Positions 2,940 through 63,405 of a DNA stretch of 64,000 bases are shown in pieces; within the stretch, counting starts at the first letter, position 1; each line of letters starts with the position of its first letter. The DNA comes from Armatimonadota bacterium (lineage in GTDB: Bacteria > Armatimonadota > Fimbriimonadia > Fimbriimonadales > GBS-DC). Below the pieces are notes generated by a model. That model worked only from the letters and a program-made list of their open reading frames with translations. It was not told the DNA's origin and did no database searches. The stretch lies in assembly GCA_013359125.1 (NCBI GenBank), contig JABWCR010000012.1, positions 1 to 64,000 on the forward strand, read 5' to 3'. The position numbers were made by a program, and so were the translations under genes.

Positions 2940-3947
2940 ATGATCGACCTGCGTTCTGACACCGTAACTCGCCCGACTGCGGAGATGATTAAGGCGATGG
3001 CCTTAGCAGAGGTGGGAGACGACGTATTGGGCGACGATCCGACGGTCATTCGGCTTCAAGAGCGAGCGGCCGAGCTGACGGGCAAGGAAGCCGCGCTCTT
3101 TGTGCCCAGCGGCTGCATGGCCAATCTGGTCAGTCTGTTGACGCTGACCGGGCGGAACGAGGAGGTTATCTGCGGCGGCGAGGCGCACGTCTACACGTCC
3201 GAAGTGGGCGGGACGGCGATTTTGGGGAACGTCTTTCTGCGTCCTCTGTCTAATCTGCCCAACGGCCAGATTGATTTGGAACTTCTGGCTGGCGCCGTCC
3301 GCCGTGAAATCTATACGCCAGTAACGCGGGTTGTTTCGTTAGAGAACACGCACAATCGCTGCAGCGGCGCCGTGCTGCCTTTGGACTATTTGCGCAAAGT
3401 CGCGGCGCTGTGCGAAGAGCGCGGCGTTTATCTGCATTTGGACGGCGCGAGGCTCTTCAACGCCTCCGTTGCATCGGGCATTAGCGTTCGGGATTATGCC
3501 TCGACGGCGAAAGTCGTTAATTTTTGTCTTTCAAAAGGGTTGGGGGCGCCGGTCGGCTCAGTGGTGTGCGGCGAGGCGGGGTTTATAGCCGAATGCAAGC
3601 GCACGAGGCGGATGTTGGGCGGCGGCATGCGTCAGGCGGGCATCTTGGCGGCTGCTGGGCTGTATGCATTGGATCATCATGTCGAACGCTTGGCGGAGGA
3701 TCATTGGAACGCCAAGCGATTGGCCGAGGGTTTGGCCAAGCTCCCGGGCATCCAGATCGATCCAAGCCAGATTGAGACCAACATCGTGATCTTTGGAGCG
3801 CCTGATCCGGGTCGCTTTGTGCAGATTATGAGTGAAAACGGCGTGCTGTTGAGCCGGTCTGGAGCCAATGTGCGAGCCGTAACGCACTTAGGCGTAGACG
3901 AAGCGCAGATCGACAAGGCCATTCAGTTAGCGGCCTCGGTTCTCTAA
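2940..3947 (+). CDS. ltaE: Low-specificity L-threonine aldolase
   Basis: This is a PLP-dependent enzyme that cleaves L-threonine or allo-threonine to glycine and acetaldehyde. Its 335 residues are the usual family length. It begins with the hallmark [11 protein letters not shown], has the PLP region SGCMANL and HLDGAR (Asp168), and the Schiff-base lysine in [13 protein letters not shown] (Lys199). The product is cytosolic. The ATG at 2940 has no Shine-Dalgarno; an extended -10 ends 8 nt upstream, which suggests a leaderless message. Confidence 0.93.
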
Positions 3948-4033
3948 TTCCGTTGGGTTTGGGTATACTTCCTCGGTTTGAAATTGCCGAGCGCGCAGGG
4001 ATGCGCGTTCTTTTCTGAGGAGGATTCGGACCC

Positions 4034-6511
4034 TTGCAACGCCATTTACTCTTTTTGGGATTGATCATACTGCTGGCCGTCGGCGCCGGCTGGGTTGTCA
4101 AAGAACAGCCCACTCGCCAGGGATTGGACGTTCGCGGCGGTCTTCGGATTCGCCTCAGAGCCGAGATCGATAAGCTTCCGCCGGCCGAACTTCAGCGTTG
4201 GAACAACGAGAGCATGGCCACGGTTCGCGGCATTCTCGAAAAGCGCATCGACATTTTGGGCGTTATCGATGCCTATGTCGGCGTCAAGGGTACGGACGAA
4301 CTGATCGTCGAGCTGCCCGGATTTACCGACGAGGCCGAGGCGAGAAAACTGCTGCAGACTACTGCGAGACTGGAGTTCCGATACGCCAAGGACACGCGCA
4401 ACCAGCGCATGCCCGGCGCGAGATACGAATTAGATCCGACCGAGGATGAAGCGGGCAACGAGGTCGTTCGATTGCGCGACATGAACGATCCGAAGGATCC
4501 GGGTCGGACGATCAAGGAGACCGACCCGGAATACGCCAAGATCATCGAGACTTGGCCCATGATCATCGCAGGCGGAGAGCTTCGCCGGGCGACGGTTCAG
4601 GCAACCGGAATGGGGCCGCCGAGCATCGCGCTCGACTTGACGAGCGAAGGCAAGGACAAGTTTGCCACGGCCACTTCCAAGTACATCGAGCAGAATATCG
4701 CGATTATCTTGGACGGTCGCATAATTTCGGCGCCTGTGGTGAGAAGCGGCAACCTGCGCGATCCGATCATCGAGGGCAACTACACGCCTGCCAGCGCCAC
4801 CCAATTTGCTAAGCTCCTGACCGCCGGCGCATTGCCGGTTTCACTGGTCGAAGAGCAGATCATGCGGATCGAGCCGACCTTGGGCAGCCGCGCCTGGGAA
4901 TCGATCATGCAAGCCGGCATGTGGGGCACCGGCATCATCGCGGTCTATATGCTCCTGTACTATCTGCTTCCCGGCTTCCTGTCGGTCATTGCCCTTTCGC
5001 TCTACATCGTCTTCTCGATCGCCCTGTTCAAGATGATGGGCGTTACCTTTTCGCTCCCCGCCATCGCTGGATTTATCTTGTCGATCGGCATGGCGGTCGA
5101 TGCGAACATCCTGATCTTTGAACGCGTCAAGGAAGAACTTCGCTACGGCAAGACGCTGTTGGCCTCGATCGATGCGGGGTTCAAACGAGCGTTTACGGCA
5201 ATCTTTGACTCTAACATGTGTACTATCATCACCTCGGGCTTCTTGTACTACTTTGGCACAGGTCCGGTGCAAGGCTTCGCTACTACGCTAGCGCTCGGTG
5301 TGGTCATCAGTTTCTTCACGGCGATCACCTGTACTCGGACACTGTTGTACGCGCTGGTCGCCCTGGGCGTGCATCCCGATCCCAAGTGGTTCGGACTAAG
5401 GCGCCAATTCGGTGTGGACGTGATTCACGAGGAAGGCGAACGAAAGAAGGGCTTTGATTTTGTCGGCCGCCGAAAGCTCTGGTACGGCATCAGCGCGGCG
5501 ATGGTGCTGGTGGGCCTGGTGGCTTGGCTCGGCTTGGGCGGTTTGAAGTTCGGCATCGACTTTGCGGGCGGCAGCGAACTGATCGTCAAGTCGGAGCGTC
5601 CCATTACTTCGAGCCTGGGCGAGGTCGAACGGCTCTTGCGCGGCGCCGGCTATCAGCGGACCAGCGCGCAGTTTGCCGAGGGCAATCAGCAATTGATCCT
5701 TCACATTGCGGACGGTAAGGAAGAGGATCGCGCCAAGGTCATGGAGGCGCTGAAACCGCTTGGAACCTTGGAAGAGGTCAGCTACGCCGCGATCAGTGCC
5801 CGAGTTCGGGACGAGATTGTGTACAACGCGCTCCTGGCGGTTATTTTGTCGCTCGGCTTCATCATGTTCTACATCACCATTCGCTTTGCGATAGAGGGCG
5901 GCTGGACGGGTCTCAAGTTTGGCGTTTGCGCGCTGATCGCGACCTTTCACGACGCTTTGGTGGTGGTGGGCGCGGCGGCATTGTTCGGCTATCTGCTCAA
6001 CTGGCAGGTCAATTCGCTCTTTTTGACCGCCATTCTAACCCTGATCGGATTTTCGGTACACGATACGATCGTCGTATTCGACCGCATCCGAGAGAACCTA
6101 AAGCATCGTCAACGGGGCGAGCAGTTCGAACAGATCGTCAACAAGAGCATCTTGCAGACGCTCGCACGCTCGATCAATACGACCTTGACCGTGGTGTTCG
6201 CGGTGGGCGCGCTGCTCTTCTTTGGCTCGGTTTCGCACGACCTGCGGCACTTTTATGTGGCGATGCTCGTTGGTCTGATCAGCGGTACGTACTCGTCCAT
6301 TTTTAACGCCAGCCAGTTGATCATCGATTGGGACAACATGCGGCGCCGCTCTGCCGAGCGGCAAGCCTCCGCGATGACCGCAACGGCCACGGGCAAGCCC
6401 ATGCAAGCAACGCCCAAGGCAGGCGTTGACAGATCGGACGAAGAGGCTAAGTCTGCCTCCGCGGCCAAGTCGGCGCCCAGCAAGCCCGCCAAGCGCAAGC
6501 GACGGTACTAA
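4034..6511 (+). CDS. secDF: Fused protein translocase subunit SecDF
   Basis: An inner-membrane RND-family protein that uses the proton gradient to help SecYEG export proteins. SecD and SecF are joined in one 825-residue chain. The SecD half has one N-terminal helix, GLDVRGGLRIRL, a large periplasmic region and the TM4 motif IGMAVDANILIFERVKEELR (about residue 350). The SecF half begins near residue 490 with GIDFAGGSELIV and carries IGFSVHDTIVVFDRIREN (about 670). The conserved transmembrane Asp residues are present in both. The tail is Ala/Lys-rich. TTG 4034 is chosen for its GAGGAGG site about 10 nt upstream. No yajC is adjacent. Confidence 0.95.
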   Translation: MQRHLLFLGLIILLAVGAGWVVKEQPTRQGLDVRGGLRIRLRAEIDKLPPAELQRWNNESMATVRGILEKRIDILGVIDAYVGVKGTDELIVELPGFTDEAEARKLLQTTARLEFRYAKDTRNQRMPGARYELDPTEDEAGNEVVRLRDMNDPKDPGRTIKETDPEYAKIIETWPMIIAGGELRRATVQATGMGPPSIALDLTSEGKDKFATATSKYIEQNIAIILDGRIISAPVVRSGNLRDPIIEGNYTPASATQFAKLLTAGALPVSLVEEQIMRIEPTLGSRAWESIMQAGMWGTGIIAVYMLLYYLLPGFLSVIALSLYIVFSIALFKMMGVTFSLPAIAGFILSIGMAVDANILIFERVKEELRYGKTLLASIDAGFKRAFTAIFDSNMCTIITSGFLYYFGTGPVQGFATTLALGVVISFFTAITCTRTLLYALVALGVHPDPKWFGLRRQFGVDVIHEEGERKKGFDFVGRRKLWYGISAAMVLVGLVAWLGLGGLKFGIDFAGGSELIVKSERPITSSLGEVERLLRGAGYQRTSAQFAEGNQQLILHIADGKEEDRAKVMEALKPLGTLEEVSYAAISARVRDEIVYNALLAVILSLGFIMFYITIRFAIEGGWTGLKFGVCALIATFHDALVVVGAAALFGYLLNWQVNSLFLTAILTLIGFSVHDTIVVFDRIRENLKHRQRGEQFEQIVNKSILQTLARSINTTLTVVFAVGALLFFGSVSHDLRHFYVAMLVGLISGTYSSIFNASQLIIDWDNMRRRSAERQASAMTATATGKPMQATPKAGVDRSDEEAKSASAAKSAPSKPAKRKRRY

Positions 6512-42392: not shown

Positions 42393-45260
42393 TTACCAGC
42401 CCTCGTTCGCCAGTTTGACCGCCTGATCCATTGTCATTTTGCCGCCCTCCGCATAGAGTCGATCAAACTCCCCGTCTCCCAATGCGCTCCTTATGCTTGC
42501 ATAAATCTCGTCATAGTTGCGCACGTCCGTCTTCAATCGCAGGGCGCCCATGTCCGCCCTGCCGGCATCCGTAAACCCGAATATCTGCACCGATATTTCA
42601 GGACGACCACTAAGCGCCGCCATGAATGCCAATCCGTCTAGGCTCAGCAGCGCCCCCCACCGATCCTCCACCTGAACGCGCAGAGCGAGCGACCGACTGA
42701 CATACTGTCTGGCAGCCTTTGCATCGCCCTGCTGTAATTTCAGCCATCCGATGCCGCCGCACGCCAAGCCGATCAACCACTTGGCATCCAACTTCTCTGA
42801 CAGTTCAAGCCCCTCGATCAACCAAGTTTCGGCTTCTTCCAACTCGCCTGCGTTCAGCAGCACGATTCCCAGAACGTTGAGCGCCTGTGCGGTACCCATC
42901 TTATTGCCCAAGTCGCGCGACGATTTGAGCGCCTTGCGCAGGAGCGAGATCGATTTCTCCAGATCGCCCTCTTGCCATGCGACCAGGCCAAGGCCGACCA
43001 GAGCATATTGATAGTTGACCAGATCGCCCAACTCGCTCCATCGGGCAAGGCTGGACTCGAAGCCTTCTCTCGCCTTTTCGTAATCGCCCCGATACCAACT
43101 GATCAGCCCAAGGCTTGCCTCGGACTGCGCCATTCCCCAAGCATTGCCGCTCTTCTTGGAAAGTTCGAGCGTCTGTTCGTGTATCTTTTGCGAAGCCTCT
43201 AAGTCGCCCACAAAGAGCGCGTTTGCGCCGATCGAGGCGAGCGCAAACGTCATGCCCTGCTCGTCGCCCAACTGAGTGCGAATAGCGAGGCTCTCTTCCG
43301 ATAGAGCCTGAGCCAAGCGATAGTCGCCCTGCTGTTGAACGAGCAACGCCAGCGAGTTGAGAGCCTTTGCGCGCAGCCATTGAGGCGCCTCCGGAACCGC
43401 ATCCAGCGCTTTCTGAGTGAACTTGCGGCCGTCGTGGTACATCCCGCGGATCATCCAATAGCGCCACAACAGGCACACTAGCGTCAACGACGCTTCGCCG
43501 TCGTTTCTCAATGCCCACTCGATCGCCGAACGCAAGTTTTTATAGTCGTGATCCAGTTTAGGCAGCCACGCCGCTTGTCCAGGCCCGTCAATGTGAGCTT
43601 CGCCCCGTTCTGCCAGCCCCAGGTAATAGACCATGTGCCTGCGGCGAAGGCTGGCCATGTCGTCCGTTTCCATCAGGCGGTCTCGACTGTACTCTCTAAT
43701 CGTCTCTGTAAAGGCATACCGCAGCCCGTCCGGTCCGCGCTCTTCCACGTTCACCAACGACTTATCGACCAGATTCCCCAGAAGATCGATCACGGCATAC
43801 TCGTCGACCCCATCGCCCGATGCGACCTGCTCTGCGGCCTCCAAACTCCAGCCGCCTAGAAACACCGAAAGGCGTCGAAAGAAGAGGCGCTCCTCCTCGC
43901 TTAACAAACCGTAGCTCCAATCGATGGTTGCTCGCAATGTCTGCTGTCTGGGCAGCGCCGTCCGACTGCCGCCGGTCAACAGATGAAACCGGTCGTCCAA
44001 CCGCTGTGCGATCTGCTCGACGCTCAATGCCCGTACTCGCACAGCGGCCAACTCGACCGCCAATGGGATGCCGTCCAACCGGCTGCAAATCTGTGCGATG
44101 GCCGGAGCCATCGAATCGCTCAGTTCCAAGCCTGGCAGGGTAATCAGCGCGCGATCCAAGAACAGCCGGGCCGATTCAAACTGCTCTAAATCCCTCAGTG
44201 CAAAGCCTTTAAAATCTTGCTGAGGAGGGAAGCTGAGCGATGGAATGCGCCAAGCCGTCTCTCCGACAATTCCAAGCGATTCGCGGCTCGTTGCCAATAC
44301 TTTAAGATTAGGACAGCTCTGAAGCAATCTCTCGACTAAACCGGCAGCCGCCTCGATCACGTGCTCGCAATTGTCCAGAACAAGCAGCGTCGTGCTGCTG
44401 CCAATGTATCGAACAAGGGAATCTTCAAGGGTCAGACCGCCATCTTGGCGCAATGCCAACTCTGTTGTTATGGCGCACGCGATCTGGTCCGGATCGGTTA
44501 CAGTCGATAAATCGACTACCCAAACGCCGTCTGGGAACCGCTCGATCAGCTCGGCCGCCGCCTCCAGCGCCAATCGAGTTTTGCCGGCGCCGCCCGAACC
44601 TAAGATCGTAACCAGCCGATACCGCCGTACTAGTTGATTGACTTCGTCCAATTCGCGCTCGCGGCCAATAAAGGCGTTGACCTGTTTGGGAAGATTGTTC
44701 GGGAGCGAGTCGATGGTTCGCAGGGGCGGGAACTCGCTGGGCAGGTCGGGCGCGACCACCTGGCAGATGCGCTGTGGATGGATCAGATCGCGCAATCGAT
44801 GCTGGCCAAGGTCCTTCAGCGCCACGCCTTCGTTCGCCGATCCGTTCAACTGGTCGCACGCATCGGCCGACATCAGAATCTGCCCGCCGTGCCCCGCGCC
44901 CGCCAATCGCGCCGTTCGGTTGATAGTCGAACCAAAAAAGTCGTTATCCCGCTCCTCGGCAACGCCGACATGAATGCCCATGCGCACGCGAATCGATTCA
45001 GGCAGCGACCAATTTGTAGATTCTAGCCTGCTTTGCGCTTCGACCGCTGCAGCCAGAGCGTCGGAAGGACAATCGAACGCCGCACAGATCGAATCGCCGG
45101 CCGTCTTGAACACGCGACCGCCATGACTGGCGACGGCCTCGCTGATGATGGCGTTGTGCAAAAGCAGACTTTCGCTCATCTCGGCGGGGCTTGTCTCCCA
45201 AAGCCTTGAGCTTCCCTCAATGTCGGTTATCAGAAAGGCGCGCACGGTTTCGATGCCCAT
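42393..45260 (-). CDS. Adenylate/guanylate cyclase-NB-ARC-TPR regulator (intact form)
   Basis: A 955-residue multidomain signalling protein. An N-terminal class III cyclase domain has metal Asp13 and Asp56 and the Asn114/Arg118 pair (INRTARL), so it may be active. A STAND/NB-ARC ATPase follows with GSGGAGKTR (221-229), LLVLDNCEH and LATSRESLG, then a winged-helix linker and about 10 TPR-like repeats. The start at ATG 45258-45260 matches the N terminus of the second copy at 61.9 kb; GTG 45299 would add 13 residues. It heads an operon with the esterase and PhyH genes. Confidence 0.88.
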   Translation of the reverse strand: MGIETVRAFLITDIEGSSRLWETSPAEMSESLLLHNAIISEAVASHGGRVFKTAGDSICAAFDCPSDALAAAVEAQSRLESTNWSLPESIRVRMGIHVGVAEERDNDFFGSTINRTARLAGAGHGGQILMSADACDQLNGSANEGVALKDLGQHRLRDLIHPQRICQVVAPDLPSEFPPLRTIDSLPNNLPKQVNAFIGRERELDEVNQLVRRYRLVTILGSGGAGKTRLALEAAAELIERFPDGVWVVDLSTVTDPDQIACAITTELALRQDGGLTLEDSLVRYIGSSTTLLVLDNCEHVIEAAAGLVERLLQSCPNLKVLATSRESLGIVGETAWRIPSLSFPPQQDFKGFALRDLEQFESARLFLDRALITLPGLELSDSMAPAIAQICSRLDGIPLAVELAAVRVRALSVEQIAQRLDDRFHLLTGGSRTALPRQQTLRATIDWSYGLLSEEERLFFRRLSVFLGGWSLEAAEQVASGDGVDEYAVIDLLGNLVDKSLVNVEERGPDGLRYAFTETIREYSRDRLMETDDMASLRRRHMVYYLGLAERGEAHIDGPGQAAWLPKLDHDYKNLRSAIEWALRNDGEASLTLVCLLWRYWMIRGMYHDGRKFTQKALDAVPEAPQWLRAKALNSLALLVQQQGDYRLAQALSEESLAIRTQLGDEQGMTFALASIGANALFVGDLEASQKIHEQTLELSKKSGNAWGMAQSEASLGLISWYRGDYEKAREGFESSLARWSELGDLVNYQYALVGLGLVAWQEGDLEKSISLLRKALKSSRDLGNKMGTAQALNVLGIVLLNAGELEEAETWLIEGLELSEKLDAKWLIGLACGGIGWLKLQQGDAKAARQYVSRSLALRVQVEDRWGALLSLDGLAFMAALSGRPEISVQIFGFTDAGRADMGALRLKTDVRNYDEIYASIRSALGDGEFDRLYAEGGKMTMDQAVKLANEGW

Positions 45261-59764: not shown

Positions 59765-60508
59765 CTAATTGGGATCCGTGTCGATCAGTAGCCCGGCTCG
59801 CTCGCCGCCGGCCATATTGGGAATCCGAACCTCCAATCCCTGTTCGGTAGCCTTACAGGCTAATTTCGTCGTCTGAACGTCCCGAAGGTCGATCCAGTCC
59901 GCCTGCATGTCTGGATACCACTCTGGCCGTGCAAATCGGTGCAGCGTCAGACAGATCGAACCGGCCGGCCGGTCGTCGCCCCCATTCTCGATAGCAAACA
60001 GGTGAAACCGATTCTGCTTCAAATGTCGCAACTTGAGGCCATCGGCGTTCAAAGCCATCGGACGATGCCCAGCCTCGTTCAACTGCCCGATCAATCTTGC
60101 CCTATCCAATGCGTGGCCAAAGGGATACTCCGTCAACGCCTCCCAGCCATCCTCCATCGGCGCCAAAACGGTAAACGGAATGCCCAGCTCGCACTCCTTT
60201 TGCAGGCACCGCGCTAGTAGATCGCGCAACGGCTCCGACCGCCCATAGCCTTCCGGCACGACGATCGTCTCAAAAATCTGCCCCTCCGCCATCAAGTGGC
60301 CGCAGGGCCGCGCAAACCCCTTTTCCAAAACAAACTCCTCCTCCACCTCGTCAAACGAGTAGAGCGCTATTGCCATCGCGTCGGCAATAGCCTCAAAATC
60401 GCCTCCGCGAATCAACCCCAAACGACTGGCTGAATGCCCGCAACCCAAGAGCGCTTCCCATCGCTCTTCTACTAGACTCAGCGCTCGCAACGCCTCCCAG
60501 TCAACCAT
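59765..60508 (-). CDS. Hypothetical protein, possibly degenerate GNAT/Eis-like
   Basis: A 247-residue protein starting MVDWEALRALSLVEERWEAL. The ATG overlaps the stop of the cyclase/NB-ARC half by 8 bases. The middle (IFETIVVPEGYGRSEPLRDLLARCLQKECELGIPFTVLAPMEDGW) resembles an Eis-type N-acetyltransferase core followed by an SCP2-like tail, but the acetyl-CoA loop is not canonical. The first dozen residues resemble the start of the C-terminal half gene at 63.36 kb (WEALxxL), possibly a relic of that domain. The function is uncertain. Confidence 0.6.
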   Translation of the reverse strand: MVDWEALRALSLVEERWEALLGCGHSASRLGLIRGGDFEAIADAMAIALYSFDEVEEEFVLEKGFARPCGHLMAEGQIFETIVVPEGYGRSEPLRDLLARCLQKECELGIPFTVLAPMEDGWEALTEYPFGHALDRARLIGQLNEAGHRPMALNADGLKLRHLKQNRFHLFAIENGGDDRPAGSICLTLHRFARPEWYPDMQADWIDLRDVQTTKLACKATEQGLEVRIPNMAGGERAGLLIDTDPN

Positions 60509-61931
60509 CGGTGCAGATCTTCTCGACCGCTTCGAGCGAAAACGAACCTGCAAAGACGCTTAATCGATCTAAGAGCAGCTTCTCCTGATCGCTCAGCAAG
60601 TTGTAGCTCCATTCGATCGTGGCGCGCAGCGTCTGTTGTCTGGGCAATGCCGTCCGACTGCCTCCGGTCAAGATGCGGAACGCGTCGTCCAATCGGGACG
60701 CTATCTGCTCGGGCGCCAGCGCCTTGGCCCGCGCCGCAGCCAACTCGATCGCAAGGGGGATTCCGTCCAGCCGCCGACAAATCTGCGCAATAGCCGTCGC
60801 GTTCGAAGGCGCCAGTTGAAACCCAGATTGCGAAAGAGCCACTCGATCCACGAACAACCGGACCGACTCGTTGGCCGCTATCAGTTCAAAGTCATCCAAG
60901 TCTGATTCGCTAGGCGCCGAGAGCGACGGAATGCGGTAACTCACTTCGCCCGGCAACCCGAGCGCCTCTCGGCTCGTCGCTAACAGCCGGACGTTTGGAC
61001 AACTCCTTAGGATAGTCTCGCCTAGCTTGGCCACGGCCTCCAACAGATGCTCGCAGTTGTCAAAGATGAGGAGAGCCTTTTTGTCCTTCAGATAGCGCAT
61101 CACGGTGTCCTGCAGGGGGCTGCCGATCTCCTCGCGCACGGACAAGGCGTTCGCCAACGACTGCACGATCAGCGATGGATCGTTCAGCGCGGCCAGTTCG
61201 ACGATCCAGACGCCGTTCGTGTATTGCTCCAACAACTCTGCGCCCGCCTGCAATGCAAGCCGCGTCTTGCCGCATCCGCCCGATCCGGTCAGCGTTACCA
61301 GTCGAGTGGTCGCGAGCGATTCGACGACTTCTCCAAGCTCTTTCTCTCGACCGATAAACGTAGTTAACTGCGGCGGCAGGTTGTTGGGCAGCGCATCCAT
61401 CGACGGCAAAGGCCGAAAGTCCTCTGGCAGTTTGGGATGGCAAAGTTGGAACAATTGTTCGGGATGCTGCAGGTCTCGAAGGCGATGCAAGCCCAAGTCC
61501 TTAAGGCTGGCCTCGCTGGGCAGACCATCGGTCAGAGCCTCGACCATCGTCGCGCTCAACAGCGTTTGTCCCCCCGCCGCCAAGGCCATTAGCCTCGCCA
61601 CGCGATTCAGCGCAGGACCAAAATAGTCGTCTCCGCGAGGCACCGCATCGCCCATGTGCAAACCCATCCGCACGCGAAAGGGAATCTCTTGCGTCTCGTA
61701 CCGAACCGTCAGCTCCAACTGAGCTGATAAGGCCGCCTGTACGCCGCACCCCGCCTTATCGAACACTGCACAAATCCCATCGCCAACGTTCTTGAAGATC
61801 TTGCCATGGTTCTCGCCAACGCACCGATCGAACAGCGCATCGTGCGCCTCTAGCGCAGTCCGCATAGCGTCGGGCATCTCCTCCCAAAGGCGCGAACTCT
61901 GTTCAATGTCGGTGAACAGAAAGACGTACAT
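60501..61931 (-). CDS. Cyclase-NB-ARC half-protein (N-terminal half of split regulator)
   Basis: A 476-residue protein equal to residues 1 to about 480 of the intact regulator at 42.4-45.3 kb. The class III cyclase domain has Asp8, Asp51 and the Asn109/Arg113 pair; the NB-ARC ATPase has GSGGCGKTR, LLIFDNCEH and LATSREALG. It stops within the winged-helix region at LEAVEKICTDG, where the intact copy continues AEQVASGDG-VDEYAV. The ATG is 3 nt after the stop of the C-terminal half gene, so both come from one mRNA. Confidence 0.85.
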   Translation of the reverse strand: MYVFLFTDIEQSSRLWEEMPDAMRTALEAHDALFDRCVGENHGKIFKNVGDGICAVFDKAGCGVQAALSAQLELTVRYETQEIPFRVRMGLHMGDAVPRGDDYFGPALNRVARLMALAAGGQTLLSATMVEALTDGLPSEASLKDLGLHRLRDLQHPEQLFQLCHPKLPEDFRPLPSMDALPNNLPPQLTTFIGREKELGEVVESLATTRLVTLTGSGGCGKTRLALQAGAELLEQYTNGVWIVELAALNDPSLIVQSLANALSVREEIGSPLQDTVMRYLKDKKALLIFDNCEHLLEAVAKLGETILRSCPNVRLLATSREALGLPGEVSYRIPSLSAPSESDLDDFELIAANESVRLFVDRVALSQSGFQLAPSNATAIAQICRRLDGIPLAIELAAARAKALAPEQIASRLDDAFRILTGGSRTALPRQQTLRATIEWSYNLLSDQEKLLLDRLSVFAGSFSLEAVEKICTDG

Positions 61932-61934
61932 AAC

Positions 61935-63362
61935 CTAGGATCCCATTGCCTTGACCGCTTGCTCGACTAGATCGATCGCCTGCTCCTCGGTCAATTCGGC
62001 GCCCGCTTTCAACTCGTCAGTCTGCAGTCCGGCTAGTATCTCGTCCAAGTCGTCCGAAAAGTGCTGAGAAGCAGAACGATTGGCCTGTCTGCGCTGCTCG
62101 TCTACAAATCCGATAGCCTTTGCGGCAGCCGTCTTGTCGCCTCGCTTTGATAGCAATACGCCGATCGCCTCCATGCCGTCCAGCCAAATGCTGCGGCGGG
62201 GAGACCGACGCAACAGCTCGACGCTCTTACTGGCCGTTTCGACCGCTTCGGCAGGATCGTCTTCTAAGGTCATGGTGATCAAATACGAACAGACCGACGT
62301 CATTTCGTTCACTAGATCTTTCTTCGAAAACTCGTCCCACAGCGAGCGCATTTCTGCAACCGAGTTCTCTTTGTTGCCTTCCTTCCAATGGATGTAGGCA
62401 ATGTAGAGCCTTGCATGGCCGATCAGGATCGGATCGTTGATTTCCTCATAGAGCCTCTTGGCTTCCACAAAATAGGGCAACGCATCGGCATACCTTCGCT
62501 GGTTTGAATAGAGAATGCCCATATAAGAATTGGCCAGACCCATGCGCCCCGTGTTGGCCAACTGCTCGGCCAAGCCGATCGCGGCTTTCAGCTCGGTCTC
62601 AGATCGCTCATATTCGCCCAACAACAGCATCGTGTAGCCTAAGTTGAGCCGAGCGGCCAGTTCGGGCGAACGCTCCTGAAGCCGCTGAAAGATCGCCACG
62701 CATTCTTCGAAGCACTTTGCGGCCTCTTCTTCGCGGCCAAGGCCTTGCAATGCCAGCGCCAGATTGTTATTGGCCGCGGCCATTCCCCACTCGTCGTTCA
62801 GCAAGGTGCGTATTTCGAGATTCTCTTGATGGTAGGCCAGCGATCCGAGGTTGTCGCCTTCGGCAAATGCAAGGTTGCCGGCCGCATTGAGAGCGGTCGC
62901 CCGGGCATTCGTTTTTTCACTTGCTTTAGGGTGATTCAGGGCCTCGTCCGCCCTCCGGCGACCCTCTTGGAGCATACCCCGCGTGCTCCAGTAAACATCT
63001 AAGCAGCCCACCAGCGTCAATGCAGGCTCGGCGCTCTCGGTGTCGCCCATCGCCCATTCCAGAGCCGACCGGATGTTCTCGTAATCTTGATCGAACCGCG
63101 TCAGCCACTCGGCCATGCCCGCGCCGCGCATTTGTACGCGCCCCTCGGTCGCCGTCTCGCTAAAGTAGTCTCGATGCCGGTCCCGCATCGAGATCGCCTC
63201 GCCGCCCATGTTCAGCCGCTCGCGCGCATATTGGCGGACGGTCTCCAGCAAGCGATATCGCCCCCCGCCAGGCGCGTCGGGGTCAAAGGTTACAAGCGAC
63301 TTGTCCACGAGCGCAGTCAAAAGGTCCAGCGCTTCCCATTCTTCGATCAATGCGTCGGCCAC
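61935..63362 (-). CDS. TPR half-protein (C-terminal half of split regulator)
   Basis: A 475-residue protein equal to the C-terminal half of the intact regulator. It starts (GTG 63360-63362) with MADALIEEWEALDLLTALVDKSLVTFD, matching VDEYAVIDLLGNLVDKSLVNVEE of the intact copy, then YRLLETVRQYARERL and about nine TPR-like repeats. TACAAT lies 8 nt before the GTG, so it appears to have its own leaderless promoter. Although it is the C-terminal half, it is encoded upstream of the N-terminal half. Confidence 0.85.
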   Translation of the reverse strand: MADALIEEWEALDLLTALVDKSLVTFDPDAPGGGRYRLLETVRQYARERLNMGGEAISMRDRHRDYFSETATEGRVQMRGAGMAEWLTRFDQDYENIRSALEWAMGDTESAEPALTLVGCLDVYWSTRGMLQEGRRRADEALNHPKASEKTNARATALNAAGNLAFAEGDNLGSLAYHQENLEIRTLLNDEWGMAAANNNLALALQGLGREEEAAKCFEECVAIFQRLQERSPELAARLNLGYTMLLLGEYERSETELKAAIGLAEQLANTGRMGLANSYMGILYSNQRRYADALPYFVEAKRLYEEINDPILIGHARLYIAYIHWKEGNKENSVAEMRSLWDEFSKKDLVNEMTSVCSYLITMTLEDDPAEAVETASKSVELLRRSPRRSIWLDGMEAIGVLLSKRGDKTAAAKAIGFVDEQRRQANRSASQHFSDDLDEILAGLQTDELKAGAELTEEQAIDLVEQAVKAMGS

Positions 63363-63370
63363 AAGACACT

Positions 63371-63405
63371 ATTGTATCCCCTACAAGCCGTGGCTGTGAT
63401 ATTAT
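63371..63405. promoter_or_regulatory. Divergent -10 elements for the split regulator and membrane protein
   Basis: Minus strand: TACAAT (63371-63376), 8 nt before GTG 63362. Plus strand: TGA-TATTAT (extended -10; hexamer 63400-63405), 7 nt before ATG 63413. Neither gene has a ribosome site. Confidence 0.6.

Follow-up and report, generated by a model that had tools for sequence, protein, structure and literature searches.

A cyclase/NB-ARC/TPR signalling protein, probably split in trans within its winged helix, in Armatimonadota

Why should the parts of one protein lie in two adjacent genes in the reverse of their usual order? The question is raised by a locus in a 64,000-nucleotide stretch of an Armatimonadota bacterium (G000:C12:1-64000; the contig is 84 kb long and the draft genome 2.8 Mb), hereafter the window. 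In this locus a gene for TPR repeats (the sensor half) precedes a gene for a nucleotide cyclase and an NB-ARC ATPase (the enzyme half), opposite to the domain order in a single-chain paralogue encoded in the same window (Table 1). Pfam profiles placed TPR in the sensor gene, guanylate_cyc and NB-ARC in the enzyme gene, and all three in the paralogue. The two products sum to 951 amino acids (475 + 476), compared with 955 in the intact form. A sequence-only reading of the stretch had reported both open reading frames, their reversed order, the promoter-like start, the narrow gap between the genes, the summed length, a clean break, the retained catalytic residues and the separation of sensor from enzyme, and each of these was confirmed. 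The finding is real and wider than first described: the split recurs, and each genome that has it carries a single enzyme half and between one and eight sensor halves.

Comparison of the ends, the linker and a structural model showed that the two halves are complementary, non-overlapping fragments of one fold. The window enzyme half, whose C-terminus reads ...LEAVEKICTDG, runs 3 residues beyond the conserved Cys of ...LEAVEKIC; the start of the sensor half lies a few residues ahead of EEWEALDLLTALVDKSLV. Enzyme halves overall end 3-4 residues past the conserved Cys of LEAAExVC (12 residues in G005 and G115), and sensor halves begin a few residues ahead of the motif LLxxLxxKSL, some carrying extensions of their own before that. 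In intact proteins the linker between these two points is mostly 12 residues long (n = 13 measured). When the intact paralogue was modelled with AlphaFold2 (mean predicted local distance difference test score, 80.5), the cut corresponded to the loop between helices 473-480 and 487-499 of the winged helix, and wing strands 504-516 fell in the sensor half. The cut thus sits inside the winged helix, not at a domain boundary, and therefore neither chain has a complete NB-ARC module. The enzyme half ends before the last helix and the wing, the sensor half opens with them, and the C-terminal TPR repeats lie in a different gene from the NB-ARC domain.

The window enzyme half retains the hallmark residues of both a class III cyclase and a STAND ATPase. 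The window copy matched PF00211 at 40.6 bits (cut-off 21.9) and NB-ARC at 31.5 bits (cut-off 23.5). Cyclase residues D8, D51, K47, D102, N109 and R113, which we take to be the two metal Asp, the substrate Lys and Asp and the transition-state Asn and Arg, were kept in the window enzyme half and four relatives; the G115 cyclase is without three of the six. The Walker A lysine is present in the window copy, and the GSGGCGKT (Walker A), TSRE (sensor) and GIP (GxP) motifs are conserved in the enzyme halves. A cyclic nucleotide is the presumed product. Enzyme halves, one per genome, show 71% mean column identity, and the sensor halves are diverse (35% identity over 13). Between G037 and G108 the ratio of nonsynonymous to synonymous substitution (dN/dS) was 0.19 in the enzyme half and, in two orthologous sensor halves, 0.38 and 0.30; dS was saturated. 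Neither kind of half therefore looks like decay and, judged from these ratios, both are under purifying selection.

Halves cut at this place were sought in other genomes. A search for enzyme halves in 113 genomes of the order, whose matches were then checked, found genes that stop at the cut only in G000 (the window's genome), G005, G037, G108 and G101. A search of 291 genomes across the phylum, in which the best five candidates per genome were scored, added one in G115 (L249:205-1689). Genes ending at the same point are therefore present in at least six genomes of the phylum, the window's and five others. A sensor profile to which only G000, G005 and G037 contributed found sensor-only genes in the same five genomes of the order, those of G101 and G108 being new finds. 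The chance of two such sets coinciding at 5 of 113 genomes is 1/C(113,5) = 7e-9, a figure that ignores kinship. The G115 enzyme half was the first of its pair to be detected; a search for a sensor half then located one 18 nt downstream, which begins MSSPVTADPPVLIEEWEVLDLLTSLVDKSLV and is truncated by the contig end. Both half types occurred together in 6/6 split genomes. The recurrence of halves cut at the same place argues that the cut is not a matter of chance.

The number of sensor halves that begin at the cut, counted in the five genomes of the order after upstream stops and contig ends had been checked, varied widely: one in G000, one in G005, two in G037, four in G108, eight in G101 and at least one in G115, giving enzyme-to-sensor ratios from 1:1 to 1:8. 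One further sensor half in G101, beyond its eight, is broken by a TGA (G101:C78). One sensor half of G108 (L156:3293-4900, on G108:C56) carries an extra N-terminal CxxC...CxxC segment that is zinc-ribbon-like, and sensor halves of G101 occur as tandem pairs (L161:149-2690 and L162:2192-5898). The reversed two-gene order, for which the sequence-only reading had suggested a search of other genomes, occurred in the window only. The halves of G115 are adjacent in normal order, and those of G005, G037, G108 and G101 are unlinked; one G037 sensor gene shares a contig with the enzyme half at a distance of about 180 kb. Reversed order is consequently not a shared heritable feature. Because relatives have the same cut with the halves unlinked or in normal order, it looks like one arrangement of a putative trans-split protein.

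Genomes without a stand-alone enzyme half served for comparison. Among about 140 sensor-region matches in 12 such genomes rich in this family, no clean sensor-only gene was found. Short frames in G041 and G072 were rejected for their in-frame stops; the former (G041:C1:2829933-2831915, L100) belongs to a normal-order cyclase/NB-ARC/TPR gene interrupted by an in-frame TAG late in its NB-ARC part. The short frame of G071:C45 is a broken SARP-type gene, G070:C80 encodes NB-ARC and TPR without a cyclase, and those in G068, G158, G152, G161, G211, G122 and G128 reflect contig edges or a frameshift. In G158, four contigs (L315-L318) break off at the winged-helix cut or just ahead of it, a pattern that would be expected if close paralogues had enzyme halves so alike as to behave as repeats. 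Among the best matches listed in the phylum-wide sensor search, the short frames that were opened were contig-cut intact genes or frameshifted genes, with the exception of G150, in which a SARP-type NB-ARC regulator is split at the same winged-helix point.

We consider it reasonably probable that the halves form a trans-split cyclase/NB-ARC/TPR STAND signalling protein. The enzyme half carries the cyclase and NB-ARC; the final helix and the wing of its winged helix are missing there and are found in the sensor half, ahead of the TPR repeats. The two chains would most likely associate by re-forming the winged helix between them. A ligand event at the TPR half may then alter the nucleotide state and oligomerisation of NB-ARC and, through these, the cyclase. 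In the window one sensor half and one enzyme half would come from one transcript, and in relatives with several sensor halves at other loci a single enzyme half probably works with them all. The winged helix of NLR proteins holds the inactive state and moves upon activation (PMC10586772); that role, together with its division here, suggests that the sensor half may both complete and control the switch. The ratio of one enzyme half to as many as eight sensors likewise suggests a shared enzyme driven by interchangeable sensors. The fuller proposal, that the one enzyme half of each genome is completed and controlled by several TPR sensors and that fission at the same loop occurred more than once, is tentative, and we hold it somewhat less likely than not to be right in all its parts. 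An intein or trans-splicing was discarded as an explanation, as both genes start and stop independently and inspection revealed no intein sequence.

Several observations weigh against this interpretation. When AlphaFold2 was applied to a permuted read-through chain (a modelling device in which the stop was read as Q), the winged helix was not rebuilt: the predicted template modelling score was 0.40 from a shallow, unpaired alignment, and residues 1-44 and 901-953, which hold both winged-helix parts, were of low confidence. Intact paralogues coexist with the halves in split genomes, and partners other than the enzyme half are therefore possible. Most of the genomes are drafts, the sensor genes L156 and L158 begin within about 80 nt of contig ends, and further stand-alone enzyme halves are possible beyond the five best candidates scored per genome.

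The sequence-only reading had attributed the locus mainly to a circular permutation, in which an intact gene was duplicated in tandem and then the first copy lost its enzyme half and the second its sensor half. As a rival to the trans-split reading, such a permutation would be local and independent of the other genomes. The reversed order, the near-equal summed length and the complementary ends are what such an event would leave, and the gene downstream of the enzyme half opens with 13 residues, MVDWEALRALSLV, that are similar to a sensor-half start. The permutation would require two independent deletions that both ended at the same point, and other genomes have the same cut without the reversed order. 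No significant remnant of a lost half was found beside the window genes: p = 0.98 upstream of the sensor half, and p = 0.04 before correction in the stretch 3' of the enzyme half, which loses significance once the 20 such tests are allowed for. An origin of the window pair by tandem duplication is therefore possible but unsupported, and we regard it as unlikely.

Phylogeny bears on the same point, as the window split could be an event of its own if the stand-alone enzyme halves need not share an origin. These genes were scattered over several places in the enzyme-half tree. In the careful tree G037 and G108 grouped with three intact genes at 100/95, and a single clade of stand-alone enzyme halves was absent from all bootstrap trees. 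The approximately unbiased (AU) test rejected one such clade on the careful 44-row set (p = 0.006); in a quick 69-row test it was not rejected (p = 0.82). Repeated fission at the same loop is the likely history as far as the sequences allow it to be read. The sensor-half tree was too weakly supported to count origins, and the trees of both window halves have little support.

Slightly less likely than the local permutation is that the halves are independent proteins, the enzyme half acting alone, without a sensor and either constitutive or otherwise regulated, and the sensors acting on intact paralogues or on other proteins. The intact family members in split genomes and the unrebuilt winged helix of the permuted model agree with this explanation. 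It leaves unexplained why stand-alone sensors occur only alongside a stand-alone enzyme half, and why the cut falls in one intradomain loop instead of between domains. By far the least probable is that gene breakage or wrongly joined contigs account for the halves: broken members do exist (G041 with its TAG, G101:C78 with its TGA and a frameshifted member in G153) and assemblies often break close to this point (G158, G068), but in the window both genes start and stop properly, the catalytic motifs are intact and the junctions lie inside the 84-kb contig, the G037 genes lie within contigs of 496 and 800 kb, dN/dS is well under 1 for both half types, and sensor halves have starts of their own and in some cases their own N-terminal extensions.

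The surroundings of the split pair in the window are summarized in Table 1. The sensor and enzyme genes are likely co-expressed, given the 3-nt spacing between them and their shared reading frame. Sites of the form TA[ACT]AAT-5..9nt-RTG, the pattern seen before the sensor half, numbered 10 in the window, and 6 of these stand at the start of ORFs of at least 150 amino acids. The gene downstream of the enzyme half is likely a third gene of the same transcript. It had no Pfam match and no homologue among 20 relatives, and synteny was uninformative. Elsewhere in the same genome, a 325-amino-acid cyclase-only gene (L217:3595-4572, on G000:C10) lies directly upstream of an intact paralogue.

Table 1. 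Coordinates of the split pair, its flanking elements and the reference paralogue in the window
Feature	Position	Strand	Description
Sensor half (C-half)	61935..63362	-	GTG start, 475 aa; TPR repeats preceded by the final helix and wing of the winged helix
Enzyme half (N-half)	60501..61931	-	ATG start, 476 aa; class III nucleotide cyclase, NB-ARC ATPase, first winged-helix helices
Spacer GTT, 3 nt	61932..61934	-	Separates the sensor-half TAG stop from the enzyme-half ATG
TACAAT, -10-like element	63371..63376	-	8 nt 5' of the sensor-half GTG; leaderless-type promoter
Intact paralogue	42393..45260	-	Cyclase, NB-ARC, winged helix, TPR; 955 aa; reference, outside the split pair
Downstream orphan gene	59765..60508	-	247 aa; starts with an ATG inside the enzyme half and shares the final 8 nt of that gene

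If the trans-split reading is correct, up to eight sensors are wired in modular fashion to one second-messenger enzyme within a single genome; if that enzyme is indeed shared, many inputs feed one cyclase. The split would also offer a natural cut point at which to probe winged-helix control of the NB-ARC switch, with the sensor half supplied in trans.

STAND and NLR proteins are normally single chains that link sensor, switch and effector, and no account of a STAND member cut within its winged helix was found in the literature searched. The closest known form is the single-chain cyclase/NB-ARC/TPR protein, such as the intact paralogue, which has the same domains, motifs and chain order once the halves are joined; the window form differs in having two chains, a cut inside the winged helix and, in the relatives, unequal numbers of genes for the two halves. 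The best Foldseek match of the modelled paralogue was PDB 6mfv, a STAND ATPase with a TPR sensor (E 3e-14, template modelling score 0.54 on the target), which shares the layout of NB-ARC-type ATPase, winged helix and TPR but is a single chain with no cyclase in its record title. Apaf-1 and plant NLRs (1z6t, 6j6i) also stood high in the Foldseek list and share the NBD-HD1-WHD switch, whose winged helix shuts over the nucleotide (PMC10586772); they differ in keeping the winged helix whole in one chain and in having different effector and sensor domains. The split in G150 (L319:1540-3303 and 3300-4793, on G150:C190) has the same winged-helix cut, in normal order with a 4-nt GTGA overlap, but its effector is by inspection a SARP-like DNA-binding domain and not a cyclase, and a single-base indel is possible there. 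In manner of working, the proposed system would most resemble the helper and sensor NLR networks of plants (NRC) and NAIP/NLRC4, in which one signalling component serves several sensors (PMC10586772). In those systems each partner is a complete NLR, whereas here one NB-ARC module appears to be divided between the partners.
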